64,000 nucleotides of DNA from NCBI RefSeq assembly GCF_025397915.1, contig NZ_JALIDZ010000004.1, positions 434,001-498,000 of the forward strand, read 5' to 3'. The position numbers and the translations under genes are program-made. The notes beneath the pieces were generated by a model. That model was given only the letters and a program-made list of their open reading frames with translations. It was not told where the DNA came from and ran no database searches. This DNA is from Microbaculum marinisediminis (GTDB lineage Bacteria > Pseudomonadota > Alphaproteobacteria > Rhizobiales > Tepidamorphaceae). Positions 42,442-58,272 of this stretch are shown here, in pieces. How positions within the stretch are numbered: the first letter of the stretch is position 1; every line of letters starts with the position of its first letter.

Positions 42442-42469
42442 GACACGCGGGTCGAATCGAACGCGCTTG

Positions 42470-42501
42470 ATGCCCGGGCCCTGGCCCGGGCATTTTCGTT
42501 T
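42470..42501 (+). terminator. Rho-independent terminator after tenA
   Basis: An 11-base stem ATGCCCGGGCC with GGCCCGGGCAT around a two-base loop, followed by TTTCGTTT. It closes the atpHAGDC-tenA unit. Confidence 0.85.
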
Positions 42502-42564
42502 CCGGGTCCCCGAACGTCCGCGCTCCGGCTGCTTGCGCGCGATGGCCGATTGATGGTTTGGCTA

Positions 42565-42576
42565 CAAACTGTTATC
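42565..42576. promoter_or_regulatory. Shared CAAAC-W-GTT motif, site 1
   Basis: CAAACTGTTATC, 33 bases before the proposed start of the crotonase gene. It matches CAAAC(A/T)GTT seen at 46619 and 53995. An ideal symmetric form would be CAAAC-W-GTTTG. Confidence 0.4.
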
Positions 42577-42609
42577 AACGGCCTCGATACATCGGGAGGA
42601 GTTGTCGCG

Positions 42610-43419
42610 TTGCACGGGTCGGAAAATCCGTCTTCGGACCTGCCGGATCTGCCGGGATCGCTTGCCGCCGAGGTCGACGGCGATATCGCCCTCCTGCGGC
42701 TTGCCCGGCCGAACAAACGCAACGCGCTCGACGATCCGACCGTCCTCGGCCTGGAGATCTTCTTCACGCGGCTGCCGGAGGGCGTGAAGGCTGTCGTGCT
42801 GAGTGGCGAGGGCACGCATTTCTCCGCCGGTCTCGACCTTTCGGAATTGCGCGAACGCGACCTCGCCGAGGGCATCGAGCATTCGCGGATGTGGCAGTCG
42901 GTGTTCGACAAGATTGCGTTCGGCCGGGTGCCGGTCGTCTCGGTCCTGCATGGGGCCGTCGTTGGCGGCGGCCTGGAACTGGCCTGCGCCACCCATATCC
43001 GCGTCGCCGAGCGCTCCGCCTATTACGGCCTGCCGGAGGGCCAGCGCGGCATCTTCGTGGGCGGCGGCGGCTCGGTGCGGGTGCCGAAGCTGATCGGCGC
43101 GGCGCGGATGATGGACATGATGCTGACCGGGCGCGTCTATGACGCAGCCGAAGGGCAGACCATCGGCCTGTCGCACTATCTGGTCGACGACGGGGCCGGG
43201 CTCGACAAGGCGAAGACGCTGGCCCGGGCCATCGCGTCGAACGCGCCGCTCAGCAACTACGCCATCCTGCAGGCGGTGCCGCGTATCGCCGAGGCCGCCG
43301 GCGGCAACGGCTATTTCACCGAGGCGCTGATGGCGGCGGTTGCGCAAAGCCAGGACGAAGCCAAGCAAAGGCTGCGCGATTTCCTCGAGAAACGCGCGCC
43401 CAAAGTCGAGAAGGAGTGA
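42610..43419 (+). CDS. Enoyl-CoA hydratase/isomerase (crotonase) family protein
   Basis: 269 residues if TTG 42610 is the start. That start is favoured because GGGAGGAG (42594-42601) is spaced eight bases from it; TTG/ATG at 42550/42553 would read through this site. Crotonase fold with LARPNKRNALDD, oxyanion-hole motif FSAGLDLSEL, GAVVGGGLELACATHIRVA and YYGLPEGQRGIFVGGGGS, with a glutamate in the second. First gene of a three-gene operon with a feruloyl-CoA synthase-like ligase and a thiolase, so it probably hydrates (and may cleave) an aryl-propenoyl-CoA. Stop overlaps the next start. Confidence 0.85.
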   Translation: MHGSENPSSDLPDLPGSLAAEVDGDIALLRLARPNKRNALDDPTVLGLEIFFTRLPEGVKAVVLSGEGTHFSAGLDLSELRERDLAEGIEHSRMWQSVFDKIAFGRVPVVSVLHGAVVGGGLELACATHIRVAERSAYYGLPEGQRGIFVGGGGSVRVPKLIGAARMMDMMLTGRVYDAAEGQTIGLSHYLVDDGAGLDKAKTLARAIASNAPLSNYAILQAVPRIAEAAGGNGYFTEALMAAVAQSQDEAKQRLRDFLEKRAPKVEKE

Positions 43420-45314
43420 TGACCGGCAACGACGCGGCCAAGAAGCAGACCGATCCGGACCGCTTCCGGCCCGTCGATCTCGGGCCGCGCGACGTCGTGG
43501 CCGAACACCGACCCGACGGATCGATCCTGTTTCGATCGCCGTTTCCACTGCCGGCCTATCCGGAGCGCCTGACCGACCGACTGGTCGACTGGGCCGAGGC
43601 CACACCGGACCGGCTTTTCCTCGCCGGTCGCCCGGCCGGCGGGGGCGACGGTGACGGCGCCGGCTGGCGCCGGTTCACCTACGCCGAGACGCTGGACCTG
43701 GTGCGGCGGATCGGTGCGGCGCTCCTGACACGGCACCTGACCCGGGAGCGGCCGATCGTCATCCTGTCGGGCAACGATATCGAGCACGCGCTCCTCGGGC
43801 TGGCCGCCCAGTATGTCGGCATCCCGTATGCTCCGGTATCGCCGGCCTACTCGCTGATCTCCACCGACTACGCGAAGCTGCGCTACATCGTCGAGCTGGT
43901 GACGCCCGGCCTGATCTTCGCCGCCGACGGCGCGGCCTTCGCCCCGGCGCTCGACGCCGCGACGCCCCGGGGCTGCGAGGTCGTGGTCGCCCGCAACCCG
44001 GGCCCCGGCCAGACCCTGTTCGACACGCTGGCGAATGGTGAGGATGCCGGGGCCGATCCCGCGGCGGCGGACACGGCGAACGCCACCGTGGGGCCGGATA
44101 CGATCGCCAAGATCCTGTTCACCTCCGGCTCCACCGGCATGCCCAAGGGCGTGGTCAACACCCAGCGCATGCTGACCTCCAACCAGGAGATGATCGCCTG
44201 CGCGTTTCCCTACTTCCGTGACGAGCCGCCGGTGATCCTGGACTGGGCGCCGTGGAACCATACCGCCGGCGGCAACCACAATTTCGGGATCGCGCTCTAC
44301 AACGGCGGGACGTTCTATATCGATGACGGCAATCCGACGCCGGCCGGTATCGAACGGACCGTCCGCAACCTGCGCGACGTCTCGCCGAACTGGTACTTCA
44401 ACGTGCCGAAGGGCTTCGACGCGCTCGTTCCCTACCTGCGCGACGACCCGGGCCTGCGCGAGACGTTCTTCAAGGACCTGAAGGTGCTGTTCTATGCCGG
44501 CGCCGGGATGGCCCAGCACGTCTGGGACGACCTCGACGCCATGGCGACCAGGACCTGCGGCGCGCGCATCCTGCGGCTTTGCGGCTTCGGCGCGACCGAG
44601 ACCGGGCCGTTCGCGCTCGTGCTGTTGTGGGATGCGCCGGCCGGCCATGTCGGCATCCCCGCGCCCGGCGTCGACATCAAGCTGGTGCCGAACGGTGCCA
44701 AGCTCGAGGCGCGGATCCGGAGCCCGAGCGTGCTGCCCGGCTATTGGCGCCAGCCGGACATGACGGCGGCGGCGTTCGACGCCGACGGCTACTACATGCT
44801 CGGCGACGCCATGCGGTTCGCCGACCCGGACGATCCCTCCGCCGGCCTGGTCTTCGACGGCCGCGTCAAGGAGGACTTCAAGCTCGATACCGGAACCTGG
44901 GTCAATGTCGGGCCGCTGCGCGGCGCCTTCATCGACCATTTCGCGCCCTACGTCTCCGACGTGGTGATCGCCGGGCTGAACCGCGACTACGTGTCGGCGC
45001 TGGTCTTCGTCGACCCCAACGCCTGCCGCCGGCTGGCCGGGCTTCCCGCCGACGGGGGACTGGCCGCCCTCGTCGCCGACGATGCCGTCAGGGCGGCGTT
45101 CCGCGACCGGCTGGAAAGCTTCGCGCGGACGGCGACGGGAAGCTCCAACCGGGTGGTCCGGCTGCTGCTCATGCCCGAGCCGCCATCGATCGACCGCCAC
45201 GAGATGACCGACAAGGGATCGATCAACCAGCGCGCGGTGCTCGAGAACCGCGCCGCCCTGATCGAAACCCTGTACGCCGAACCGCCGGGACCCGACGTCC
45301 TGGCGCTTGCGTGA
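43419..45314 (+). CDS. AMP-dependent acyl-CoA ligase, feruloyl-CoA synthase type
   Basis: 631 residues, ANL superfamily. P-loop [41 protein letters not shown] (adenylate binding), YMLGDAMRF, and [20 protein letters not shown], typical of feruloyl-CoA synthases and their kin. [13 protein letters not shown] holds the C-terminal catalytic region. It activates a carboxylic acid with ATP and CoA; ferulate or another aryl acid is likely from similarity, not proven. Overlaps the crotonase stop (TGATG). Confidence 0.88.
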
Positions 45315-45327
45315 GGAGAAACGAGAC

Positions 45328-46581
45328 ATGAGCGGGACGGAGCGCGCGGTCTGCGCCGAATGGAGCGACGTCTGGCTCCTCGACGGGGTGCGCACGCCCT
45401 TCGTCGACTACAAGGGCGCGCTGTCGCTGGTCTCGCCGATCGATCTCGGCATCAAAGCCGGCCGCGAGGCGCTGGCGCGCGCCGCCGTCCCGCCGGAGGA
45501 CGTCGGAACCGTTATCTGCGGCTCGATGGCCCAGGCGAGCTTCGACGCCTACATGCTGCCGCGCCATGTCGGCCTCTATTCCGGGGTGCCGATGGAGGTG
45601 CCCGCCCATCTGGTACAGCGTATCTGCGGGACCGGGCTCGAGGTGATCAGCCAGGCCGCCGACGCGGTGTCGCTCGGCCGGGCGAACGCGGCGCTGTGCG
45701 TCGGCGCGGAATCGATGAGCCGCAATCCGATCGCCGCCTACACCCATCGCGGCGGTTTCGACATGGGCCGAGTCGAGTTCAAGGATTTCCTCTGGGAAGC
45801 GCTGCTCGATCCGGCGGCGAGCGTCACCATGGGCGGCACGGCGGAGACCCTCGCGACGCGCTATCAGATCGGCCGCGAGGCGGTCGACGCCTATGCGGCG
45901 CGCAGCTTCGAACGGGCCATGGCGGCCAGGGACAGCGGATTCCTCGACGGCGAGATCACCCCGGTGACGAGCGAGGTGTTCGCGCTCGAGGGCTACAACG
46001 ACCGTGGCATCAGGCTGCCGCGCAAGGTCGATGCGGTGCGTCAGGATACGCATATCCGGCCATCATCGGTTGAGGCGCTCGCGCGGATCCGGCCCGCCTT
46101 CGGCGGGGTGCAGACCGGCGGCAACTCGTCGGGCGTGGTCGACGGCGCCGCGGCGGCGGTGGTCGCCTCCGGGGCCTATGCGCGTGACCGCGACCGGGCG
46201 CCGCTGGCCCGTCTCGTCTGCGCGGCGGCCGTCGGCGTGCCGCCGGAGATCATGGGCATCGGACCGGTGCCGGCGATCCGGGCGGTGCTGGACCGCAGCG
46301 GCCTATCGCTCGCCGACATCGACCGCATCGAGATCAACGAGGCGTTCGGCGCCCAGGTGATGGCCTGTGCGCGCGAACTCGGGCTCGACGAGGACAGGCT
46401 CAACGTCAACGGCGGGGCGATCGCCATCGGCCACCCGCTCGGCGCGACCGGCCTGAGGCTCGCCGTCACGCTGGCCCGGGAACTGGCTCGATCAGGCCTG
46501 CGCTACGGCATCGCATCGGCCTGCATCGGCGGTGGGCAGGGAATCGCGCTCCTGATCGAGACGACCGAAAGTGCCGGATGA
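45328..46581 (+). CDS. Thiolase family protein (acetyl-CoA acyltransferase)
   Basis: 417 residues. Nucleophilic Cys100 in QRICGTGLEV, then EINEAFGAQVMA, GGAIAIGHPLGATG with the catalytic His, and ACIGGGQGIALLIE with the second Cys. It splits or joins acyl-CoAs, here most likely the thiolytic step of side-chain beta-oxidation. GTGAGGAG precedes ATG 45328. Last gene of the operon; no 3-hydroxyacyl-CoA dehydrogenase accompanies it. Confidence 0.93.
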   Translation: MSGTERAVCAEWSDVWLLDGVRTPFVDYKGALSLVSPIDLGIKAGREALARAAVPPEDVGTVICGSMAQASFDAYMLPRHVGLYSGVPMEVPAHLVQRICGTGLEVISQAADAVSLGRANAALCVGAESMSRNPIAAYTHRGGFDMGRVEFKDFLWEALLDPAASVTMGGTAETLATRYQIGREAVDAYAARSFERAMAARDSGFLDGEITPVTSEVFALEGYNDRGIRLPRKVDAVRQDTHIRPSSVEALARIRPAFGGVQTGGNSSGVVDGAAAAVVASGAYARDRDRAPLARLVCAAAVGVPPEIMGIGPVPAIRAVLDRSGLSLADIDRIEINEAFGAQVMACARELGLDEDRLNVNGGAIAIGHPLGATGLRLAVTLARELARSGLRYGIASACIGGGQGIALLIETTESAG

Positions 46582-46618
46582 ACCGCCGATTTCGGCACCC
46601 TATCCGAAAGTTTGAGGG

Positions 46619-46631
46619 CAAACAGTTGCGG
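46619..46631. promoter_or_regulatory. Shared CAAAC-W-GTT motif, site 2
   Basis: CAAACAGTTGCGG just upstream of the dctP promoter -35 element. It matches CAAACAGTTGTGG in the iorA/marR spacer at 12 of 13 bases. A second GCAAACA follows at about 46634. Confidence 0.45.
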
Positions 46632-46646
46632 AAGCAAACAACATTC

Positions 46647-46675
46647 TTGCCCCCGCCGCTTGGCTCGGTCTAGGC
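46647..46675 (+). promoter_or_regulatory. Candidate promoter of the TRAP operon
   Basis: TTGCCC (46647-46652), 17 bases, CTAGGC (46670-46675), the looser form usual in alphaproteobacteria. It lies 83 bases before dctP and right after the shared motif at 46619. Confidence 0.45.
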
Positions 46676-46757
46676 TACGCCCAACAGAGCCGCCAGCGCA
46701 GTGCGCGTCAGGCGGCCAAGCCGATCGCCAAAGATCCGCTGTCTGAGGGAGGACCGC

Positions 46758-47780
46758 ATGAAAGCGCATACCTGGCTTGCCAGCACCATTGTCTCCGCCG
46801 CCATGTTCGCGGCGGGTGCCGCCTACGCGGACGATCCGGTCGAGATCCGGTTCGCGCACTGGGTGCCGCCGACACATCCGCTGCAGCAGGCGATCACCGA
46901 GTGGGGCGCGTCCCTCAACGAAGCTACCGGCGGTACGATCTCGGTGACGATCTTCCCGGCGCAGCAGCTCGGCGCCGCGAAGGACACCTACGACATGGTC
47001 CGCGATGGCATCGCCGACATGGGCTACATCAACCCGGGCTACACGCCGGGCCGCTTCCCCGTCTTCGACGCCGCCAATCTGCCCTTCAACATCACCAACG
47101 CCACGGACGGCTCCGCGGCGATCGACGAGTGGTACGGCAACTACGCCGAAAAGGAGATGGGCGACATCTATGTCTGCCTCGCCAACGCGCATGACCCGGG
47201 CACCTTCCATTCCAAGGAAAAGATCGTCGTTCCCGGCGACGTCAACGGCCTGAAGGTGCGGCCGGCCAACGGCACGATCTCCAAGATGGTGACCCTGCTC
47301 GGCGGCCAGCCGGTCCAGGTCAGCGCGCCGGAATCGCGCGAGGCGCTGGAGCGCGGCGTCGCCGACGCGATCACCTTCCCCTGGGGCTCGATCCTCCTGT
47401 TCGGCATCGACAAGACCGTGAAGTACCACCTCGACATGCCGACCTATGTCGTCGGCTTCGTCTGGGGCATGAACAAGGACTTCTACAACAACCTGTCGGA
47501 TGCCCAGAAGAAGGCGGTCGACGATCACTGCAATCCCGAATGGGCCAAGCAGACCTCGATCGGCTGGGCCACGTACGAGAGCGGCGGCCGCGACAAGATC
47601 AAGGCGATGTCCGACCACACCGTGACCACGCCGACCGACGACCAGGTCGCCGAATGGCGCAAGGCCGTGGCGCCGATGGAAGACGAGTGGAAGAAGGCCG
47701 TGAACGACGCAGGCTACGACGCCGACGCGGTCTGGAACGACCTTCAGGATACGCTGAAGAAGTACAACTCGAAATACTGA
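46758..47780 (+). CDS. dctP: TRAP transporter substrate-binding protein DctP
   Basis: 340 residues. Signal peptide (KAHTWLASTIVSAAMFAAGAAYA) then a DctP fold: IRFAHWVPPTHPLQQAI, SVTIFPAQQLGAAKDTYDMV, LKVRPANGTISKMVTLLGGQPVQ, and ALERGVADAITFPWGSI. The arginine in VRPANG normally pairs with the substrate carboxylate, so an organic acid is expected, here perhaps an aromatic one. GAGGGAGGA precedes ATG 46758. Confidence 0.93.
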   Translation: MKAHTWLASTIVSAAMFAAGAAYADDPVEIRFAHWVPPTHPLQQAITEWGASLNEATGGTISVTIFPAQQLGAAKDTYDMVRDGIADMGYINPGYTPGRFPVFDAANLPFNITNATDGSAAIDEWYGNYAEKEMGDIYVCLANAHDPGTFHSKEKIVVPGDVNGLKVRPANGTISKMVTLLGGQPVQVSAPESREALERGVADAITFPWGSILLFGIDKTVKYHLDMPTYVVGFVWGMNKDFYNNLSDAQKKAVDDHCNPEWAKQTSIGWATYESGGRDKIKAMSDHTVTTPTDDQVAEWRKAVAPMEDEWKKAVNDAGYDADAVWNDLQDTLKKYNSKY

Positions 47781-47801
47781 GGCGGACCGATGACCGGCCG
47801 T

Positions 47802-47821
47802 CCCGGCACCAATTGGCCGGG
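47802..47821 (+). promoter_or_regulatory. Hairpin between dctP and dctQ
   Basis: CCCGGC and GCCGGG around ACCAATTG, 22 bases after the dctP stop in a 122-base gap. No T-run follows, so it may protect the dctP message or partly end transcription, giving more DctP than DctQM. Confidence 0.4.
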
Positions 47822-47902
47822 GCGGCGGCTTCGGCGTCTCGGCGATCGTCCTGTCCGAATCTCTCGCCGGCGGGCGAGGGCGCGTGAGGTCCAGGCTCTT
47901 CG

Positions 47903-48451
47903 ATGAACGCGTTCGAGCAGCTCATCAAACGGATCGTCACCTTCGTCGACGGGGCGGCGGCGATGTTCCTGGCGGTCATCACCGGGCTGACCTTCCTGAC
48001 CGTTGTGCTGCGCTACGGGTTCAACGCGTCGCTGCCCGGATCCTTCGACATCGGTCGCCTGCTGCTCGGCGTCGCCATTTTCTGGGGCGTGGCGGTCGCC
48101 GCCTACCGGCAGGAGCATATCCAGGTGGACATCCTCTGGTCGGCCCTCCCGCGCAAGGCCCGGGGCTATCTCAACCTGTTCGCCGATCTCGTGTTCTTCG
48201 GCTGCGCGGCCGTCTTCACGTGGATGTTCCTTGTCCGCGTCTTGGCCACGCGGGCGTCCGGCGAGACCACCTTCGAGCTCGACGTGCAGATCTGGCCGTT
48301 CCACCTGCTCGCCTGGCTCGGCATCGCGCTGACCACCGTCGTGCTGCTGGCCCGCATCGCCCATGTGGTCATCACCGGCAACTTCGACGTTCCCTCGAAT
48401 CTCGGCCCCGACGATGACGGGCCGCAGGACTATCCCGCCGGAGAGCCATGA
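47903..48451 (+). CDS. dctQ: TRAP transporter small permease subunit DctQ
   Basis: 182 residues with four membrane helices. LTFLTVVLRYGFNASLPGSF and GVAVAAYRQEHIQVDILWSALP match the DctQ signature of a conserved loop after the first helix. ATG 47903; it overlaps dctM by four bases (ATGA). Confidence 0.9.
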   Translation: MNAFEQLIKRIVTFVDGAAAMFLAVITGLTFLTVVLRYGFNASLPGSFDIGRLLLGVAIFWGVAVAAYRQEHIQVDILWSALPRKARGYLNLFADLVFFGCAAVFTWMFLVRVLATRASGETTFELDVQIWPFHLLAWLGIALTTVVLLARIAHVVITGNFDVPSNLGPDDDGPQDYPAGEP

Positions 48452-49752
48452 GCTATCCCGATCTCGTCGCCATCGGCGGCTTCGTCGTCCTGTTCATCCT
48501 GCTGCTCCTGCGCGTGCCGATCGGCGTCGCCATGGGCCTCGTCGGCGTCGGCGGCTTCGCCATGATGGTCCGGACGTCGTCGGCGCTGAACCTGGTCGGC
48601 CTGTCGCCGATCCGCACCGCTACGGAATACTCGCTGGCGCTGATCCCGATGTTCATCCTGATGGGGTCGCTGGCGACCGCGTCCGGCCTCAGCAAGGAAC
48701 TGTACCGGGCCTCCAACGCCTGGATCGGCCACCGGCGCGGCGGGCTCGCCATGGCCACGATCGCCGCCTGCGGCGGCTTCGCGGCGATCTGCGGATCGTC
48801 GGTGGCGACAGCGGCGACGATGACCCGGGTCGCGCTGCCGGAGATGAAGCGCTACGGCTATCCCGACACGCTGGCGACCGGCTCGATCGCGGCCGGCGGC
48901 ACGCTCGGCATCCTGATCCCGCCGTCCATCGTCCTCGCCATCTACGGCATCCTGACAGAGCAGGACATCGGCAAGCTGTTCATCGCCGGCGTCATTCCCG
49001 GCATCCTGGCGCTGCTCCTCTATCTGGTGACGGTGCGGCTCTACGTGATGTTCTCCAAGAGCGACGTACCCGTCCAGGAGAAGGCTGACTGGACCGAGCG
49101 GATCCATGCTTCGCGCGGCGTCTGGGCGGTGGTGCTGCTGTTCGTCTTCATCATGGGCGGCATCTACGGCGGCGTCTTCACGCCGTCCGAGGCCGCCGGC
49201 ATGGGTGCCTCGGGCGTGCTGATCATCGGCCTCGTGCGCCGCCGGCTCGACGGCAAGGCGATCTACCGCTGCCTCGTCGACAGCATCCAGGTCTCCGCCT
49301 CGATCTTCTTCATCCTGATCGGCGCCCTCCTGTTCGGCTACTTCCTGACGGCGACGCAGACGCCGCAGAAGATCGCCAACCTGCTGCTGGCCCTCGACCT
49401 CGGCCCCCACGGCACGCTGGTGCTGATCCTGCTGTTCTTCCTGATCCTCGGCTGCATCCTCGACGCCATGGCGATGATCGTGCTGATGATCCCGATCATC
49501 TATCCGGTCATCCTGCAGCTCGGCTTCGATCCGATCTGGTTCGGCGTCATCATCGTCATGACGGTGGAGCTCGGCCTGATCACCCCGCCGGTCGGCATGA
49601 ACGTCTTCGTGCTCAATTCGCTGGCGCGCGACATACCGCTTCAGCGCGTGTTCGCCGGCGTCATGCCGTTCGTGCTGATGGACGTCCTGCGCCTGTCGCT
49701 GCTCGTGGCGTTCCCGATCCTGGTCCTGTTCCTGCCCAACACGATGCAGTGA
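48448..49752 (+). CDS. dctM: TRAP transporter large permease subunit DctM
   Basis: 434 residues, about 12 membrane helices. RVPIGVAMGLVGVGG, TAAGGTLGIL-type repeat seen as GSIAAGGTLGILIPPSIVLA, and ELGLITPPVGMNVFVLN, both hallmark pore loops. Uses the sodium gradient to import the DctP-bound acid. Overlaps dctQ and the next gene. Confidence 0.95.
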   Translation: MSYPDLVAIGGFVVLFILLLLRVPIGVAMGLVGVGGFAMMVRTSSALNLVGLSPIRTATEYSLALIPMFILMGSLATASGLSKELYRASNAWIGHRRGGLAMATIAACGGFAAICGSSVATAATMTRVALPEMKRYGYPDTLATGSIAAGGTLGILIPPSIVLAIYGILTEQDIGKLFIAGVIPGILALLLYLVTVRLYVMFSKSDVPVQEKADWTERIHASRGVWAVVLLFVFIMGGIYGGVFTPSEAAGMGASGVLIIGLVRRRLDGKAIYRCLVDSIQVSASIFFILIGALLFGYFLTATQTPQKIANLLLALDLGPHGTLVLILLFFLILGCILDAMAMIVLMIPIIYPVILQLGFDPIWFGVIIVMTVELGLITPPVGMNVFVLNSLARDIPLQRVFAGVMPFVLMDVLRLSLLVAFPILVLFLPNTMQ

Positions 49753-50216
49753 GCCCCATGCTCGTCGCGCAATCACCGTTCATGCACATTCACGCCGAAC
49801 TGGCCGACAGTCTGGAGTTCGGCCTGACGCCGATGGGCACGCGGCGGGTGATCAACATCCTCGGGGGAACGGTGTCCGGCGAGCGGGTCAACGGCCGCAT
49901 CCTGCCCGGCGGCGCCGACTGGCAGGTCATCCGGTCGGATGCGATCGCCGACATCTCGGCGCGTTACACCATCGAAACGGCGGCCGGCGCGCTCGTGCTC
50001 GTCAACAGCGACGGCGTGCGCCACGGGCCGGCCGACGTGATCGCAAGGCTGGCGCGTGGCGAGGCGGTCGATCCCGCGCTCTACTATTTCCGCACGGCCA
50101 TGCGGTTCGAGGCGCCGGTCGACAGCGACGTCGCCTGGCTCAACGGCATCATCGGCGTCGCGACAGGCAGGCGCGAGAAGAACGCCGTGCTGCTCGACGT
50201 CCACGCGGTGGTCTGA
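49749..50216 (+). CDS. DUF3237 domain-containing protein
   Basis: 155 residues of DUF3237, a beta-barrel family: TRRVINILGGTVSGERVNGRILPGGADWQ, ISARYTIETAAGALVLV, and PALYYFRTAMRFEAP, WLNGIIGVATG. Members sit beside aromatic and terpenoid catabolic genes but have no proven reaction. GTG 49749 overlaps the dctM stop (GTGA); ATG 49758 is an alternative. End of the TRAP operon, convergent with iorB. Confidence 0.85.
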   Translation: MSPMLVAQSPFMHIHAELADSLEFGLTPMGTRRVINILGGTVSGERVNGRILPGGADWQVIRSDAIADISARYTIETAAGALVLVNSDGVRHGPADVIARLARGEAVDPALYYFRTAMRFEAPVDSDVAWLNGIIGVATGRREKNAVLLDVHAVV

Positions 50217-50247
50217 GGGCTACTCGGCGGTCTGAGCCCTACTCGGC
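50210..50247. repeat. 19-bp tandem duplication holding both convergent stop codons
   Basis: GGTCTGAGGGCTACTCGGC (50210-50228) and GGTCTGAGCCCTACTCGGC (50229-50247), two mismatches. The TGA of the DUF3237 gene is in copy one; the CTA (TAG on the minus strand) of iorB is in copy two. Confidence 0.85.
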
Positions 50248-51750
50248 GGCCTGACGGTCCGGCGCGAGCGAGGCCCAGAGGCTCCGGATCGTTTCGTCGA
50301 GGGCCGTTCCCTCCGGGTCCTTCAGCGCGGCAAGCCGGGCGTTCAGCACCGCGTCGGCGAAGGCCGGGGCTGGCAGGTCGCCGGCCAGGGCGGGCTCGAC
50401 GACGCGCGCGACGATGCGGTCGAAATTGCGGCGACCGCGCTTGTGCGTGTCGGCATAGCCCTTCACCAGGCCGCCGATGGCGACGACCTCGCGCGCCGCG
50501 TCCGGATCGACCGCGAGCGTCCGGTCGATCAGGTCGAGCCAGTGTTCGATCCAGGCCTGCTCGTCGGCGTAGCGCAGGGTGCGGCGGCGCCAGCCGCGCA
50601 GGCTCGCGAGCGTCTTCAGCCGGATGAACCCGCCGAACCGCGTCGCCGTGACGTTCATCGGGATCGACCATGTGTCCCAGCCGCGGCCGGCGAGAAAGGC
50701 CAGCGCGCGCCGCGCCAGCGCGGGCGGCAGCAGCGAGAAAAGCTCCTCGGGCCCCGGCTTCATATACTCGATCACGTCGACGATCTCGCCGGACCGCGCC
50801 CCGGCCTCGGCCCGGACCTGTTCGAGCCTTGCCGCGGTGAGCTTCAGCTGGGCGACGCGGATCGTGTCCTCGAAGGCCATGCGCAACGCCAGGATGCGGG
50901 CGAGCTCGGACAGGAATGCCGCATCCGCGCCGGGCCGGCCGGCGAAGCGCTTCAGGCGGTCGGCATAGAGCGCGACGTACGCGTCGTCCTGATAATCGGC
51001 GAGGCGCTGCGATCCCGCCTCGATCATCGGCAGGGCGCCTTCGGGATAGAGCGACCAGGCTTCCGGGACCGGCCGCACCGCGTCTTCGGTTTCGGCGGCC
51101 GGGGCGGGCCCCGTCCTGCCGGTTCGGGCGAACGCGAGCCCGGCCTCGAACCCGCGCAGATTCGACTCGACCGCCTTGGCGCCGGCGCGGATCGCGTCAC
51201 GATAGCGGTCCGGCGGGATCGGCAGGGTGCCGGAGCCGGCGAGCGCGCCGAGCAGGACGGCGTTCAGATGGCTGCCGGCGGCCTGGGCGATCGCGCCGAG
51301 ATCGCCGAGCAATGCGGTTTTCGAATAGCGTTCGACGATCGCCTCGAGCCGGTCGGGATCGAGGCGTCCGTCGCCCATGGAAGCCTTCTCCGCCACGGTA
51401 TAGACGCGGCGGACGACGCCGATCAGCACGGTCCGATCGGGCGTCGCGTAGCCCGTCTGCACCATACGCGCGGTCTCGAGCAGTTCCGTGCCGATCAGCA
51501 CGTCGACGCGGCCGGGCGCCGGATTGAGCGCCAGCACCGGCTTGCCCGGCCCGCGCCCGGCGTCGGCGTGGGGCAGGATCTCGAGGTAGTAGGTCGTGGC
51601 GCCGGTGCGCTGGGCGACGCCGGGGATCGACGTGCGCTGGGCATGGAGGCCCTCGGCGACGGCGGCATCGGCGATCCAGCCGGCAAGCACGCCGCCGCCT
51701 TCGCCGCCGAGCGCGGAGATCAGGACCGTGATCGGCGAGCCGGCCGACAT
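50239..51750 (-). CDS. iorB: Indolepyruvate:ferredoxin oxidoreductase beta subunit, extended
   Basis: 503 residues, longer than the roughly 200 of archaeal IorB. The gamma-type domain is at the start (LISALGGEGGGVLAGWIADAA, RTSIPGVAQRTGATTYYLEI, LIGTELLETARMV, NAVLLGALAGSG), followed by a 280-residue helical extension (AYVALYADRLKRF, VDVIEYMKPGPEELFSLLP, IPMNVTATRFGGFIRLKTLASL). With IorA it decarboxylates aryl-pyruvates to aryl-acetyl-CoA, reducing ferredoxin. One base separates it from iorA. Confidence 0.88.
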   Translation of the reverse strand: MSAGSPITVLISALGGEGGGVLAGWIADAAVAEGLHAQRTSIPGVAQRTGATTYYLEILPHADAGRGPGKPVLALNPAPGRVDVLIGTELLETARMVQTGYATPDRTVLIGVVRRVYTVAEKASMGDGRLDPDRLEAIVERYSKTALLGDLGAIAQAAGSHLNAVLLGALAGSGTLPIPPDRYRDAIRAGAKAVESNLRGFEAGLAFARTGRTGPAPAAETEDAVRPVPEAWSLYPEGALPMIEAGSQRLADYQDDAYVALYADRLKRFAGRPGADAAFLSELARILALRMAFEDTIRVAQLKLTAARLEQVRAEAGARSGEIVDVIEYMKPGPEELFSLLPPALARRALAFLAGRGWDTWSIPMNVTATRFGGFIRLKTLASLRGWRRRTLRYADEQAWIEHWLDLIDRTLAVDPDAAREVVAIGGLVKGYADTHKRGRRNFDRIVARVVEPALAGDLPAPAFADAVLNARLAALKDPEGTALDETIRSLWASLAPDRQAAE

Positions 51751-51751
51751 G

Positions 51752-53926
51752 TCACTCGGCCGGAATGGGGTGCGGCGCCGGGCGGGCGTCGGGTTCGGAC
51801 GGTGCCGCGTAGCCGCCGAACAGCCGGATCAACGCCGAGGACAGCCGCGCCCGGAACCGGTCCCAGCCGTTCGGGTTCCGGATGATCTCGAGGCGGGCGA
51901 AGGACGGGCAGAGCTGGGCGGCGTGGGACACCTCGCCGCACAGGCCGCAGCCGACGCAGTCGTTGTTCACATGGGCGACCGGCTCGGGTTTCAGCGGGTC
52001 GGTGCTGGGCTTCACCGTCAGCGACGGGCAGCCGGACAGACGGATGCAGGCATGGTCGCCGGTGCAGACGTCGGGATCGACCCAGAAGCGGGTGCGTACG
52101 ACGCGCCTGCCTTCGGCGACCGCCCGGGCCTCGGCCGGGCGGACGCGGCGCTGGCGGGCGAGCTGGCACTCGCCGTCGGCGATGATGACCTTCGGGCCCG
52201 TCTCGTCGCTGCCGAGCGCCTCCCGCAGCGTCTTTCGCATGGTCGACACGGAATAGGAGTGGACCGTGCGGACCCAGCCGACGCCGAGGCTCTTCAGCGC
52301 GCTCTCGATATCGAGCCCGCGGCCGCGCCCCTCCCCCTGCGGCCGCGAGGAGGGCACGTCCTGGACGCCGGTGGCGCTGGTATAGCCGTTCTTGAAGATG
52401 ACGAGGACGGAATCGTCCTGGTTGAAGACCGAGCCGGCGACGCCGGTGAGCAATCCGTTGTGCCAGAAGCCGCCGTCGCCCATGACGCTGAGCGGGCGCT
52501 TCGCCTGGGTGCCCGAAACCGCCGCGTTCGAGGCGAGCGACATGCCGTAGCCGAGGATCGAGTTGCCCTGGCTGAACGGCGGGAAGGTCGCGAAAGCGTG
52601 ACAGCCGATGTCGGCGGCGACGTGGACCGGGCCGGTTTCCTCCCGCAGGAGCTTCATCGCCGAGAAGACGGGGCGCTCCGGGCAGCCGGTGCAGAAGGTC
52701 GGCGGGCGCGGCGGCAGCGGCGCCGTGAGGTCCCGGGCGACGGATTGCGAATGGGCCTCGACGGCCTCGACCCATTCGTCGAGGCGGGCGGCTTCGTTGC
52801 GGCCGTAGCGCGACAGGAAGGCGGACAGGCCCCTGGCGACCACGACCGGCGAATACTCGCCGGCCATCGGCAGCACGTCCTTGCCGTGCAGTTTCGTATC
52901 GAGTTCGGCGTGGCGCAGGATCTGGCCGATCTCCTTCTCGATGAAGTCCGGGCCGCCTTCCTCGACCACCAGAACGGCGCGCTTGTCGGCGCAGAAGGCC
53001 GCGATCTCCTCGGGGACCAGCGGATAGGTCACGTTGAGGACGTGGGTCGGGATGCCGATGTCGCCATAGGCGTCGGAGAGCCCTGCCTCGGCGAGGCGGC
53101 CGTTGAGGACGTTGAACATACCGCCCTGGACGATGATGCCGATATCGCCGTCCTCCGGCCCCAGCGTCTCGTTGAGGCGGTTGTCACGGATGAAGGCGCG
53201 GGCCGCCGGTAGTCGGCGGTTCACCTTGTCGGCCTCCTGGACGAAGGTTACCGGCGGATGGCTAAGACGGGCATAGTCGAACCCGGCGGGTTCGGCGAAG
53301 CGGTTGGTCGCCGAGTGCTCGGACCGCCGGTTGTCGGATGCCTCGAAGGCGCCGAAGACATGGCAGGCGCGGATGCGCAACTCGAGAATGACCGGCGTCG
53401 AACTTGCCTCCGACAGCGCGAAGCCCTTCTCCACCATGCGCACGATGGTCGGCAGCTCCGGGCGCGGGTCGAGCAGCCATACCGACGACTTCACCGCGTA
53501 GGCCTGGGTGCGCTCCTGGATGACGCTGGCGCCTTCGCCGTAATCCTCGCCGACGATGATCATGGCGCCGCCGATGACGCCGGCCGACGACAGGTTCGAC
53601 AGAGCGTCGGCGGCGACATTGGTGCCGACGATCGACTTCCAGGTCACGGCACCGCGCAGGGGATAGTTGATCGAGGCGGCGAGCATCGCCGCGGCCGCGG
53701 CCTCGTTGGTGCAGGTCTCCAGACGAATGCCGAGTTCGCCGAGCAGGTCCTCGGCCTGCAGCAGCACATCGAGCAGATGGCTGACCGGCGCGCCCTGATA
53801 GCCGCCGACATAAGCGACGCCGGACTGCAGGAGCGCCTTGGTGACGGCCATGATGCCCTCGCCGTGGAAGGTGTCTCCTGCACCGAGCCTCAGCGTCTCG
53901 ATCTCGCGATGAAACGAGACTTCCAT
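51752..53926 (-). CDS. iorA: Indolepyruvate:ferredoxin oxidoreductase alpha subunit
   Basis: 724 residues. Pyrimidine-binding domain (GEGIMAVTKALLQSGVAYVGGYQGAP, ETCTNEAAAAAMLAASINYP), ThDP-binding domain (FCTGCPERPVFSAMK, IGCHAFATFPPFSQGNSILGYGMSLA, MGDGGFWHNGL, with VIFKNGYTSATG), and a C-terminal ferredoxin-like end (VCTGDHACIRLSGCP, then CVGCGLCGEVSHAAQLCP). The first cluster site has fewer cysteines than a full CxxCxxCxxxC. ATG 53926 is preferred, with GGGAGCAGGA upstream; longer starts reach into the MarR spacer. Divergent from marR. Confidence 0.9.
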   Translation of the reverse strand: MEVSFHREIETLRLGAGDTFHGEGIMAVTKALLQSGVAYVGGYQGAPVSHLLDVLLQAEDLLGELGIRLETCTNEAAAAAMLAASINYPLRGAVTWKSIVGTNVAADALSNLSSAGVIGGAMIIVGEDYGEGASVIQERTQAYAVKSSVWLLDPRPELPTIVRMVEKGFALSEASSTPVILELRIRACHVFGAFEASDNRRSEHSATNRFAEPAGFDYARLSHPPVTFVQEADKVNRRLPAARAFIRDNRLNETLGPEDGDIGIIVQGGMFNVLNGRLAEAGLSDAYGDIGIPTHVLNVTYPLVPEEIAAFCADKRAVLVVEEGGPDFIEKEIGQILRHAELDTKLHGKDVLPMAGEYSPVVVARGLSAFLSRYGRNEAARLDEWVEAVEAHSQSVARDLTAPLPPRPPTFCTGCPERPVFSAMKLLREETGPVHVAADIGCHAFATFPPFSQGNSILGYGMSLASNAAVSGTQAKRPLSVMGDGGFWHNGLLTGVAGSVFNQDDSVLVIFKNGYTSATGVQDVPSSRPQGEGRGRGLDIESALKSLGVGWVRTVHSYSVSTMRKTLREALGSDETGPKVIIADGECQLARQRRVRPAEARAVAEGRRVVRTRFWVDPDVCTGDHACIRLSGCPSLTVKPSTDPLKPEPVAHVNNDCVGCGLCGEVSHAAQLCPSFARLEIIRNPNGWDRFRARLSSALIRLFGGYAAPSEPDARPAPHPIPAE

Positions 53927-53994
53927 TCCTGCTCCCTTCCACCGCGCGTGGGGCGGTGATCGACGGCACTGTACGAATGCGGTAGTAGCGACGT

Positions 53995-54007
53995 CAAACA
54001 GTTGTGG
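53995..54007. promoter_or_regulatory. Shared CAAAC-W-GTT motif, site 3
   Basis: CAAACAGTTGTGG in the spacer between iorA and marR, 69 bases from iorA and 112 from marR. It matches site 2 at 12 of 13 bases and is the natural spot for the MarR protein to control both genes. Confidence 0.5.
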
Positions 54008-54118
54008 CCACGCACTATCGGTTCTAGGTTGCCTTGCGGGATTCGGTCCGGCCGGCATGGACTGACATGGCTGCCGGCCCGAACGAGCCGCGGCGGAAGC
54101 GAAGGTGTGTCGATCGAG

Positions 54119-54583
54119 ATGGATATTCCGGTACAGGCGGCGGACAGCGGGCGTGACATCGACTACGACGAACTGCCGAACTACATCGGCTATCTGCTGC
54201 GGCGCGCGCAGGCCAACGTCTTTCGCGAGTTCGAGCGGTCGCTGGGGGATATCGGGCTGACGCCGGGGGCGTTCGGCCTTCTGATGTTGATCCGCGCCAA
54301 TCCGGGCATCACGCAGATGGAACTCGCCAATGCCTTCGGGATCGACAAGTCGACGCTGACGCCGGTCCTCAACCGGCTGGAGCAGAGCGCACTCGTCCGC
54401 CGCGAGCAACTCGCCCATGACCGGCGCTACAACGCCCTGTTCTTCGAGGACGCCCAGGAGGCGTTCTTCGATCGCGCGCGGACGCGGGTCCGCGACTTCG
54501 AGCAGTCGGTCGCCGATCGTCTATCGGACGACGAGCAGCGCGAACTGGTGCGTCTGATCGGCAAGATCCAGGCGGACGCCTGA
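54119..54583 (+). CDS. MarR family transcriptional regulator
   Basis: 154 residues. Winged helix-turn-helix: LGDIGLTPGAFGLLMLIRANPG, then recognition segment TQMELANAFGIDKSTLTPVL, wing QLAHDRRYNALFF, and dimerising end helices. MarR repressors of aromatic genes (for example CouR, which senses p-coumaroyl-CoA) release DNA on binding a small aromatic or its CoA ester. Divergent from iorA, it is the likely regulator of the 42.6-54 kb island. GTG 54107 with GGAAG upstream is an alternative start. Confidence 0.92.
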   Translation: MDIPVQAADSGRDIDYDELPNYIGYLLRRAQANVFREFERSLGDIGLTPGAFGLLMLIRANPGITQMELANAFGIDKSTLTPVLNRLEQSALVRREQLAHDRRYNALFFEDAQEAFFDRARTRVRDFEQSVADRLSDDEQRELVRLIGKIQADA

Positions 54584-54952: not shown

Positions 54953-55909
54953 ATGTCGAGTTTTGTGTCGCTAGTAGATCGCTCGTTTTCTCGCAAACAA
55001 CCATCACCTTCCAAAAGCCGGCCGTCGCCAGTCCAGCCAGCCGCGCCGGGGACGGAGTCAACCGAGCGTCCACTTTTCGGCCTCGAGCAGCTCGAGGTGG
55101 ACTGGGAGGAGGAAACGGGAACCCTGTGGACGTTCATGCGTCCGCATAACCGACCCAGCTATAATCCTGAGTTTCTGAAGGATTTCGAGGCGTGGCAGAT
55201 CGGTATCCAGTCGATGTTCGCCGGGCAGGAGGACGAACTCCGCTATCTCGTTCTCGGGTCGCGCTGGCCCGGCGTCTACAGCCTGGGTGGTGATCTCGAC
55301 CTGTTCGCCAGACACATCCGCGACCGCGACCGCGAGGCCCTGGTCGAGTATGGCCGCACCTGCGTGCGGATCCTGCATCGCAACATCGAAACGCTGGACC
55401 TGCCGGTGGTGACGATCGCGCTGGCGCAGGGGGACGCGCTGGGCGGCGGTTTCGAGTCGCTGCTGTCGTTCAACGTCGTCATCGCCGAACGGGGCATCAA
55501 GTTCGGCTTTCCCGAAAGCTTGTTCGGGTTGTTTCCGGGCATGGGCGCCTACAGCCTGCTGGCGCGCCGCATCGGTGCGGCGAAGGCCGAGGAGATGATC
55601 CTGTCCGGCAATTCCTTCACGGCCGAGGAGATGCACGACCTGGGCATCGTCCATATCCTGGCCGAACCCGGCGAGGGCGTTGAGGCGACGCGGGCCTATA
55701 TCCAGAAGCAGCGGTGGCGGCGCAACGGCTCGCGCGCCGTCTACATGACGGGCCGCCAGGTCGATCCGCTTCCGCTCGAGGAGCTCGAGCGGATCGTGGA
55801 GATCTGGGCGGATGCCTGCCTGCTGCTGAGCGATCGCGATCTGCGCCTGATGGAACGGCTGGTCGCCGCGCAGGACCGGCTGCGCAGTGTCCCGCTAGCA
55901 GCGGAATAG
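54953..55909 (+). CDS. RpfF-like crotonase, probable diffusible signal factor (DSF) synthase
   Basis: 318 residues. A Ser/Pro-rich leader of about 40 precedes a crotonase domain whose features are those of RpfF of Xanthomonas and Burkholderia: LPVVTIALAQGDALGGGFES with Glu168, GFPESLFGLFPGMGAYSLL with Glu188 (20 apart, as Glu141 and Glu161 of Xanthomonas RpfF), and a C-terminal end IWADACLLLSDRDLRLMERL almost like RpfF. RpfF makes cis-2-unsaturated fatty acid signals from 3-hydroxyacyl-ACP. ATG 54953 follows AGGGTG. It is convergent with a GGDEF/EAL gene, as rpfF is with rpfR. Product not proven. Confidence 0.82.
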   Translation: MSSFVSLVDRSFSRKQPSPSKSRPSPVQPAAPGTESTERPLFGLEQLEVDWEEETGTLWTFMRPHNRPSYNPEFLKDFEAWQIGIQSMFAGQEDELRYLVLGSRWPGVYSLGGDLDLFARHIRDRDREALVEYGRTCVRILHRNIETLDLPVVTIALAQGDALGGGFESLLSFNVVIAERGIKFGFPESLFGLFPGMGAYSLLARRIGAAKAEEMILSGNSFTAEEMHDLGIVHILAEPGEGVEATRAYIQKQRWRRNGSRAVYMTGRQVDPLPLEELERIVEIWADACLLLSDRDLRLMERLVAAQDRLRSVPLAAE

Positions 55910-55932: not shown

Positions 55933-58272
55933 TCAGGCGACCGCGACGAGGTTCGCCCGCTGCGCGGGCGAGGCCTGCAGCTTCTCCATGATGGCGTCGA
56001 ACGGCATGGCGCGGCCGAAGAGATAGCCCTGCCCCTCGTGGCAGCCCTCTTCCTTGACCTGACGCAGCTGTTCCTCCGTCTCGATGCCTTCGGCGACCAC
56101 GATCATGTTCAGGCTGTTGCCGAGACCGGCGACGGCGCGGACGATCGACGGGGCATCCTGATCGCGACCCAGATCGGCGATGAACGACCGGTCGATCTTG
56201 ATCTTGTTGAACGGGTATTTGCGCAAGTAGTTCAGCGACGAGTATCCCGTGCCGAAGTCGTCGAGCGAGATCCGCACGCCGAGTACCTTAAGCTGCTCCA
56301 TCGTGTAGAGCGTGCTCTCGCTTTCCTCGAGCAGCACGCGCTCGGTGATCTCGAGATCGAGGCACTGGGCCGGCAGGCCCGACTTGGCCAGGGCCGAGAC
56401 CACGCGGGCACCCAGCGACCGGTCGCGGAACTGGACCGGCGACAGGTTGACCGCGACCTTGGTGCCGGCAGGCCATTTGGCCGCGTCCTGGCAGGCGCGC
56501 TGCAGGACCCATTCACCGATCGAGATGATGAGCCCGGTCTCCTCCGCGATCGGAACGAACTCCGCCGGCGAGATGTAGCCGCGCTCGGGATGGTGCCAGC
56601 GCAGCAACGCCTCGCAGGTTGTGATCTCTCCGGTCTTCAGGTCGATCAGCGGCTGATAGAAGACCTCGATTTCGTTGCGTGACAGCGCGTCGCGCAGGTC
56701 GAGTTCGAGCGCGCGGCGGGCCTGGGCGCGCTCCTCCATCTCCGCGGCGAAGAAACGGTGCTCGCCGCCGCCATTGCCCTTGGCGGCATAGAGCGCCATG
56801 TCGGCGTTCTTGATCAACTCGTCGGCGTCGATGCCGTCCTGCGGCGCGACCGCGATGCCGATCGAGGCGCCGATGTCGATGCGGTGCCCCTCGACGTCGA
56901 ACGGCACGGACAGTGCCTTCACCAAGCGGCGGGCGAGGCGCCCGGAATCCTGCCGGCGCGACGGGGTCGACTGCAGGATGACGAACTCGTCGCCGCCGAA
57001 GCGGGCGATCATGTCTCCGGTGCGCACGACCGAGCCGAGGCGGCGCGACACCTCCTTGAGCAGCTTGTCGCCGATGGGATGTCCAAGCGTGTCGTTGACC
57101 TGCTTGAACCGGTCGATATCGATCAGGTGCAGGGCGATCTGATTGCCGCCTTCGCGCACTATCTCCAGCATCTCGTTGATGCGCTCGCGGAAATGGTTGC
57201 GGTTCGGCAGGCCGGTCAGGTCGTCGTAGCGGGCGAGATAGGCGATCCTCTCCTGGGCGGCCTTGCGCTCGGTGACGTCCTCGAGGATGACCACCGAGCC
57301 GCCGTCGGCCATCATCCGGCGCGACAGCGCCATGATGCGCTCGCCGTCGACGGAGACGAAGACCTGGCCGTGGTGGTCCTGCCTCAGGCCGCGGGTGAGT
57401 TCGTAGACGATCGAACGGACGCCCCGGCCGGAATGATTGCCCGCACGGATCGAGTACCGGACCAGGTCGCGGATCGTCGTGCCGACCTTGATCGGCGCAT
57501 CGAACAGGTTGAGCAGCTCGATGAAGCGGGCGTTCCACACCTTCAGCCTGTCCTGATCGTCGAACATGCACAGGCCGTGCGACATGTTGTTGAGGGCGAT
57601 GTCGAAACGGTTGGCCTGCTCCTCGTAGCGGGCCGCCAGCGCAGCTTCCTTGCGCGTCATCGTCAGCGCCTGAATGATGATGTCGCGAATGGACAGGGTG
57701 ATGTCGACCATCCCGTAGATGAACATCAGGATGACGAAACCGAGCGCCTTGTGGAGCCAGTCCGGATAGATCAGCAGCGAGATCGCAAGCGGCAGCGTGG
57801 TGAGCGTGAGCTGGCCGACCGCGATGATCGGTCGGCCGGCGTTGCGGCCCGAAATGGCGGCGGCATATCCCGCTGCGGTGGTGGCGACCGCCAGATGCAG
57901 AGTTGCGTCCGTGGTATGCGTCAGCGTGATGTAGCAGAGCAGCCCGAGAAGCGCGGAGAAGCCCCAGGCGCCGTACTCGTAGATTCGTTCCCAGATTTGC
58001 GTGGCGGCGACATCGTCGGCAAGCTTGCGGCGCTTGTAGATGACGGCGGAGACGACACGCAGCAGCCCGACCGCGAAAATCGCGATAGACGTGGCCAGGA
58101 TCGCGGGATCGTTCGCCTTGATCGCGACGGCCGCGCCGATAATGCCGCACGCGATCGCGCCCACTGCCAGGGACGACAGCGGTGCGAACAACGACTCAAC
58201 CAGCGCCGCGCGAATCTCAGGCGAGAGTTGCGCGTCGTCTTGGCGTGTCGCGAGGAGTCTGCGTAGGAGCAT
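55933..58272 (-). CDS. Six-helix membrane, PAS, GGDEF and EAL protein
   Basis: 779 residues. Six membrane helices (about 30-50, 57-78, 102-118, 124-141, 147-169, 174-195), a PAS domain (about 220-340, NMSHGLCMFDDQDRLKVWNARF), an intact GGDEF (426-430) with the RxxD inhibitory site Arg417-Asp420, and an EAL domain with EAL 554-556, ITERVLLEE, DDFGTGYSS, KIDRSFI and EGIETEEQ. All catalytic motifs for making and breaking c-di-GMP are present. It is convergent with and 23 bases from the RpfF-like gene. The membrane domain is not one I can name. Confidence 0.93.
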   Translation of the reverse strand: MLLRRLLATRQDDAQLSPEIRAALVESLFAPLSSLAVGAIACGIIGAAVAIKANDPAILATSIAIFAVGLLRVVSAVIYKRRKLADDVAATQIWERIYEYGAWGFSALLGLLCYITLTHTTDATLHLAVATTAAGYAAAISGRNAGRPIIAVGQLTLTTLPLAISLLIYPDWLHKALGFVILMFIYGMVDITLSIRDIIIQALTMTRKEAALAARYEEQANRFDIALNNMSHGLCMFDDQDRLKVWNARFIELLNLFDAPIKVGTTIRDLVRYSIRAGNHSGRGVRSIVYELTRGLRQDHHGQVFVSVDGERIMALSRRMMADGGSVVILEDVTERKAAQERIAYLARYDDLTGLPNRNHFRERINEMLEIVREGGNQIALHLIDIDRFKQVNDTLGHPIGDKLLKEVSRRLGSVVRTGDMIARFGGDEFVILQSTPSRRQDSGRLARRLVKALSVPFDVEGHRIDIGASIGIAVAPQDGIDADELIKNADMALYAAKGNGGGEHRFFAAEMEERAQARRALELDLRDALSRNEIEVFYQPLIDLKTGEITTCEALLRWHHPERGYISPAEFVPIAEETGLIISIGEWVLQRACQDAAKWPAGTKVAVNLSPVQFRDRSLGARVVSALAKSGLPAQCLDLEITERVLLEESESTLYTMEQLKVLGVRISLDDFGTGYSSLNYLRKYPFNKIKIDRSFIADLGRDQDAPSIVRAVAGLGNSLNMIVVAEGIETEEQLRQVKEEGCHEGQGYLFGRAMPFDAIMEKLQASPAQRANLVAVA

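Follow-up and report, generated by a model that had tools for sequence, protein, structure and literature searches.

Does the MarR-family regulator encoded at this locus control the neighbouring operons through one shared DNA element? The earlier note had proposed this for three units, reading the string CAAACWGTT before the crotonase–ligase–thiolase operon, the TRAP–DUF3237 operon and the iorA/marR pair as a single motif bound by the adjacent MarR protein. In the window, that is, the whole 64-kb stretch of DNA that was analysed, the three strings are indeed located at 42565, 46619 and 53995, sites 2 and 3 differ at one base out of 13, and all three lie in promoter regions (Table 1). Site 1 is found 37–45 bp before the probable crotonase start (TTG 42610, which follows GGGAGGAG); for site 2, the dctP start (ATG 46758) is about 140 bp further downstream. 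The upstream distances of site 3 are 69 bp to iorA (53926, on the minus strand) and about 110 bp to marR (54107). On sequence evidence, a MarR regulon comprising two or more operons, namely crotonase–ligase–thiolase and TRAP–DUF3237, is well supported.

Table 1. Coordinates of genes, promoters and sites in the window
Feature	Position	Strand	Basis and remarks
Terminator-like hairpin, 11-pair stem	42469..42494	+	separates a TenA-family gene from the crotonase unit
Operator 1 (candidate)	42550..42575	+	before the crotonase–ligase–thiolase unit; rank 1 by the relatives-only matrix; kept in G001; one of 4 exact genome copies
Inferred promoter TTGATG-N17-TATCAA	42550..42578	+	by eye; operator 1 in spacer; kept in G001; below consensus-scan threshold
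Crotonase/enoyl-CoA hydratase (PRK08150 type)	42610..43419	+	NF006013, 392 bits, cut-off 232
Acyl/aryl-CoA synthetase (nearest PRK12582)	43416..45314	+	759.5 bits, slightly below cut-off 777
Thiolase (acetyl-CoA C-acyltransferase)	45328..46581	+	TIGR01930, 387.6 bits, cut-off 240.55
Operator 2 (candidate)	46604..46629	+	before the TRAP–DUF3237 unit; matrix rank 5; kept in G001; one of 4 exact genome copies
Second overlapping register at site 2	46620..46645	+	matrix rank 2 in the window; AGCAAACAACATTC kept in G001
Inferred TRAP-unit promoter TTGCCC-N18-TAGGCT	46647..46676	+	by eye; both hexamers mostly kept in G001
dctP, TRAP solute-binding protein	46758..47780	+	profile search
dctQ, TRAP small permease	47903..48451	+	profile search
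dctM, TRAP large permease	48448..49752	+	profile search
DUF3237 protein	49749..50216	+	profile search
iorB-like 2-oxoacid oxidoreductase subunit	50239..51750	-	NF006179, 516 bits, cut-off 348
iorA-like 2-oxoacid oxidoreductase subunit	51752..53926	-	TIGR03336, 269.6 bits, under cut-off 650.9
iorA promoter TTGACG-N18-TACAGT	53968..53997	-	consensus scan; kept in G001; overlaps site 3
Site 3	53995..54007	+	poor operator, at most degenerate; score -10.1, rank 195; AGTT not kept in G001
MarR-family regulator	54107..54583	+	profile search; recognition helix GIDKSTLTPVLNRL

The short string cannot define the regulon. CAAACWGTT is enriched in the window, with three copies against a mean of 0.10 and a maximum of 1 in 100 shuffles, but the refuting condition set in the earlier note, an equal frequency elsewhere in the genome, applies in part. 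The whole genome (G000; 5.1 Mb in 55 contigs) holds 24 copies, 12 on each strand, against 9 of the reversed-pattern control, and 21 of the 24 lie outside this region, at about 0.3 per 64 kb. Nor is site 1 a reversed half-palindrome, as had been claimed. AACWGTT is self-complementary apart from its centre base, so that site 1 cannot be read as site 2 reversed; outside this core, the CAAAC that site 1 shares with sites 2 and 3 runs forward in all three. Judged from the alignments, CAAACWGTT is only the right arm of a longer element.

This element is the inverted repeat GTTTG-N4-CAAAC, represented by GTTTGGCTACAAAC at site 1 (42556-42569) and GTTTGAGGGCAAAC at site 2 (46610-46623). That both sites share it is seen from the alignment with G001, a same-genus genome that carries the cluster (an uncultured Tepidamorphus MAG, on the same contig as locus L098; identity 79% for MarR and 87–88% for IorA). 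The positions kept there are GATTGATGGTTTGnnnACAAACTGTTATCAAC at site 1, and GAAAGTTTGnGnnCAAACAGTTG followed by AGCAAACAACATTCTTGC at site 2, so that both arms are retained at two promoters while the N4 is mostly changed, as in a phylogenetic footprint. The repeat is also rare. Of its four exact copies in G000, two are sites 1 and 2, 4 kb apart, G001 has exactly two, only at the two orthologous promoters, and Amorphus coralli (G023, L110) has one, within the cluster of its MarR relative. Copies with one mismatch number 33 in G000 versus 28 in the control.

The other two exact copies in G000 differ in quality. That at G000:C2:381430 scores just 8.0 with the matrix described below. The copy at G000:C4:134240-134253 (L124:9241-9254), outside the window and 342 kb away on the same contig, scores 23.0, above site 1, and may be regarded as a further operator candidate. 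Its neighbours are a gene of the FAA-hydrolase family on one side and a divergent one of the DHDPS family on the other; within a few kb, one gene that resembles IclR and others that resemble 3-oxoadipate CoA-transferase were recognised by eye. In G001, where the region is split over contigs, a search for a counterpart found none.

The element was also derived from other genomes. A named-genome scan for MarR relatives gave 25 loci, and exact copies of GTTTG-N4-CAAAC number 12 in 8 of these, or 11 in 7 of 24 without L098. When all 11,264 dyads with arms of 5 bases and a spacing of 0–10 were searched without supervision in the 24 loci, the window and G001 both excluded, GTTTG-N4-CAAAC came out strongest, in 7 loci against 0.10 expected. 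A 26-base matrix built, under the same exclusions, from the 11 sites in relatives (consensus AAacTaGTTTGatatCAAACtAgtTT) places site 1 first in the 64-kb window (19.1); ranks 2 and 5 go to the two registers of site 2, the overlapping one at 46620-46645 (16.1) and the site's own (11.6). Among 10 control loci with CouR-like and other MarR types, whose helices were read in nine (L067 not among them), none has the element. Their top dyad is GTTAT-N5-ATAAC, in 4 of 10 loci (L067, L070, L071 and L085), a candidate operator for the CouR-like and other MarR group in its own right.

Starting from the motif gives a different picture. GTTTGN4CAAACTAGTT had one match in 385 genomes of the class. For TGTTTGN4CAAACTA there were 14, spread over 12 of the order's 397 genomes, against 25 for the reversed control; none of these 14 has a related MarR within about 1.5 kb (loci of about 3 kb). 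In G023, the match and the MarR (L077) are about 3 kb apart. Because these counts are at background, the regulon cannot be found by motif alone, and the association holds only from the MarR side.

The window protein has a MarR winged helix-turn-helix (PF12802, 54.4 bits, cut-off 27; PF01047, 50.8 bits, cut-off 24.6), and the palindromic operator in target promoters, a MarR-family trait, is present as sequence. Fifty-six MarR sequences were compared, L026 and L030 being dropped as the same genomes as L098 and L110. When the stretch before marR was scored, each locus without its own sites and against shuffles that keep base composition only, the eight best of the 56 rows all had the helix DKS[TS], and the loci with a strong site carry RDKS[TS]xTP. 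At 25 bits a site occurs before marR in 8 of 27 DKS[TS] rows versus 0 of 29 with other helices, and at 16 bits in 11 of 27 versus 1 of 29; these counts come from helix classes set after seeing the data and from loci that are not independent, with L099 and L099_2 counted separately despite one shared intergenic site. Before dctP, 11 of 19 rows, the window included, exceed all 100 shuffles (again of base composition only; for L101 the contig holds no upstream region), and four of them (L106, L112, L113 and L117) have clearly related TRAP genes, with DctM at 70–73%.

In the tree, the window MarR and L098 belong to a nine-row clade with L099–L105 (support 99/96), which joins an 18-row clade at only 84/79; the latter contains 12 of all 14 rows that are marked as having an operator nearby. 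Within the window MarR's own clade, exact sites are confined to G001. L104, which has an identical helix, carries GTTTG-N5-CAAACTGTT before dctP, with arms 5 rather than 4 bases apart. No clear copy was seen in the stretches read of the nearest relatives L099–L102 and L105, except for one L099 site that may belong to its second MarR. Next to iorAB in L099 (4651-5946) is a head-to-head pair of MarR genes from different subgroups, with the candidate site AATAGTTTTATCTCCGACTATT in the gap. In L121 (1357-1382), another marR is preceded by AAGATAGTTTGAAACAAAACTATCTT, a palindrome whose 10-base arms match perfectly.

Among solved structures, the closest relative is CouR of Rhodopseudomonas palustris (PDB 6c28, 6c2s and 6c9t; E 1.6e-17, the next being 2.8e-10), described in passages of two sources as a MarR repressor of p-coumarate genes that is released by p-coumaroyl-CoA (PMC9594313, PMC5487221). 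Of the MarR proteins in G000, the one nearest to the CouR-like query, at 35% identity, is the window MarR; the others reach at most 29%. The window protein is ruled out as a CouR orthologue by its differing helix and by the neighbouring operators. Its recognition helix, GIDKSTLTPVL, is not CouR-like (GILRPNFVAML), and the operator beside CouR-like and other non-DKST relatives, compared through the relatives' loci rather than CouR's own operator, is the GTTAT-N5-ATAAC dyad rather than GTTTG-N4-CAAAC. CouR of Rhodococcus jostii RHA1 is similar in being a MarR repressor with a single inverted repeat across several promoters of the hydroxycinnamate regulon, overlapping -35 boxes, but its box, cATTGA-N5-TCAATg, is present also at its own promoter, as far as the cited passages describe it (PMC4737184). 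The best NCBIfam match is the family of Saro_0803 from Novosphingobium aromaticivorans (NF053777), membership of which is ruled out by 88.6 bits against a cut-off of 200. Saro_0803 is comparable in that its site, of 22 bp, lies at the -10 box (PMC10046596); its repeat, GCAATA-N6-TATTGC, and its ligand, resveratrol, differ.

Site 3 stands apart from the other two. Its left arm is missing, and with the relatives' matrix even the best register nearby reaches only rank 20 in the window (-1.2). Its CAA falls inside the -35 box TTGACG of the iorA promoter, and G001 keeps GACGTCAAAC only, AGTT being replaced by TATC. Between iorA and marR, L103 and L104 retain CAAACTAA only. In G000, G001, L103 and L104, CAAAC is kept in this gap and, by eye, a TAGT-like left side lies 7 instead of 6 bases from AAAC (poorer in L104), which leaves a weak reading of site 3 as an operator, though it is probably not a proper copy. 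The element was not found in marR's own promoter either, where scores do not exceed -1.2 (window) and 3.1 (G001). An operator in the own promoter is common in the MarR family and not obligatory. The sequence does not support control of iorAB or autoregulation of marR. The proposal of one motif before three operons thus stands for sites 1 and 2, as an extended element kept in the orthologous locus, and falls for the CAAACWGTT definition and for site 3; the neighbouring MarR is the best candidate binder of sites 1 and 2, because the same element accompanies its relatives.

Three other readings have to be weighed against this. That MarR binds CAAACWGTT at all three sites, and so would also control iorAB and itself, draws on the fact that CAAACWGTT ends every operator-like site of the close group, five in all (sites 1 and 2 of G000 and G001, and the L104 dctP site), and on the CAAAC with TAGT-like left side kept in the four iorA–marR gaps. 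The 24 genome copies, the poor matrix rank of site 3, its lost AGTT and its overlap with the iorA -35 box speak against this reading, which we regard as unlikely. The repeat might instead be a genuine operator of both units for another regulator, of MarR, TetR or LysR type, encoded elsewhere: the marR promoter lacks the element, G000 has 11 matches to the window MarR in all, and a copy scoring above site 1 lies 342 kb off. Relatives of exactly this MarR, however, have the element next door and other MarR types do not, and a separate regulator appears improbable.

Chance combined with conserved core promoter sequence would explain why the conserved block at site 1 includes the inferred -35 and -10 boxes, and why motif-first counts in the order are at background. 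It would not easily explain that two of the four genome copies stand 4 kb apart in two promoters, that in G001 both orthologous promoters and nothing else carry the repeat, or that the motif emerges independently from other genomes; it is the least credible reading, and a very remote one. The preferred reading remains that GTTTG-N4-CAAAC at sites 1 and 2 is, very probably, the operator of the window MarR.

The genes so connected form two neighbouring groups, probably for the uptake and breakdown of aromatic acids. Crotonase, acyl-CoA synthetase and thiolase are the usual set for the beta-oxidative shortening of cinnamate-type acids. IorAB, MarR, DUF3237 and TRAP genes are also linked in L103 and L104, which supports a functional unit. 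Relative loci that bear the operator contain thiamine-diphosphate enzymes (L109, L117 and L119), an aldehyde dehydrogenase (L077/L110) and TRAP genes, and L117 additionally has an FMN-dependent dehydrogenase; this gene set would recall mandelate or arylglyoxylate pathways. One Rhodobacteraceae contig (L104:146-7377) holds an ACS/ECH pair with another MarR (helix VKRAHMTKM) as well as the IorAB–MarR–DUF3237–TRAP module. A gene that adjoins marR in G001 too (L055) stands at 54953-55909; its product, a member of the crotonase family akin to the RpfF signal synthases, scores 366.5 bits with NF006452 and 203.8 bits with the RpfF model, under the cut-off of the latter. At the very start of this gene lies a one-mismatch operator copy (54985-54998, GTTTTCTCGCAAAC; its register ranks eighth in the window), and beside it, at 55933-58272, the translation resembles GGDEF-EAL by eye.

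Taken as a mechanism, it is probable that the MarR protein binds GTTTG-N4-CAAAC in the two promoters and represses aromatic-acid import and CoA-dependent breakdown until a ligand releases it; binding, repression and ligand are what we infer from the sequence. A MarR dimer would sit on operator 1 in the inferred promoter of the crotonase–ligase–thiolase unit, between its -35 and -10 boxes, and another on operator 2 directly upstream of the inferred TRAP–DUF3237 promoter, holding both functions off. Both of these promoters were read by eye; in the consensus promoter scan, the one reported is that of iorA, at site 3, and no other. At site 1, the repeat fills the promoter spacer and ends about 40 bp before the probable start codon, and a position within the spacer is classical for repression. 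The position of site 2 makes repression less certain and would also fit activation. The ligand may be an aromatic acid, or else the corresponding 2-oxo form or CoA ester; an aryl-CoA is a fair first guess, no more, because the closest solved relative is released by p-coumaroyl-CoA.

The arrangement of MarR and operator is of an ordinary, well-known kind, and its details are new; a full-text literature search with the motif letters and gene sets yielded no description among the matches listed, judged by title and abstract opening. Elsewhere in the lineage of this MarR, the genes beside it are TRAP genes and those of thiamine-diphosphate enzymes. Homologues of the crotonase–ligase–thiolase genes adjoin CouR-like MarRs in G012 (L070) and, without a detected ligase, in G062 (L071). 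For this reason, the regulon may have been rewired: tentatively, and with the odds somewhat against it, a DKST-lineage MarR that recognises GTTTG-N4-CAAAC could have taken over a hydroxycinnamate-type crotonase–ligase–thiolase operon and lost the operator in its own promoter. If so, import would be coupled to the breakdown of the same aromatic acid, and the same operator elsewhere in alphaproteobacteria would mark clusters resembling mandelate or arylglyoxylate pathways. The helix DKS[TS]xTP together with GTTTG-N4-CAAAC provides a testable DNA code for a MarR group found beside aromatic-acid uptake and 2-oxoacid genes. With it, TRAP transporters and DUF3237 proteins that are as yet uncharacterised can be sorted, by prediction, into those that take part in aromatic catabolism and those that do not.
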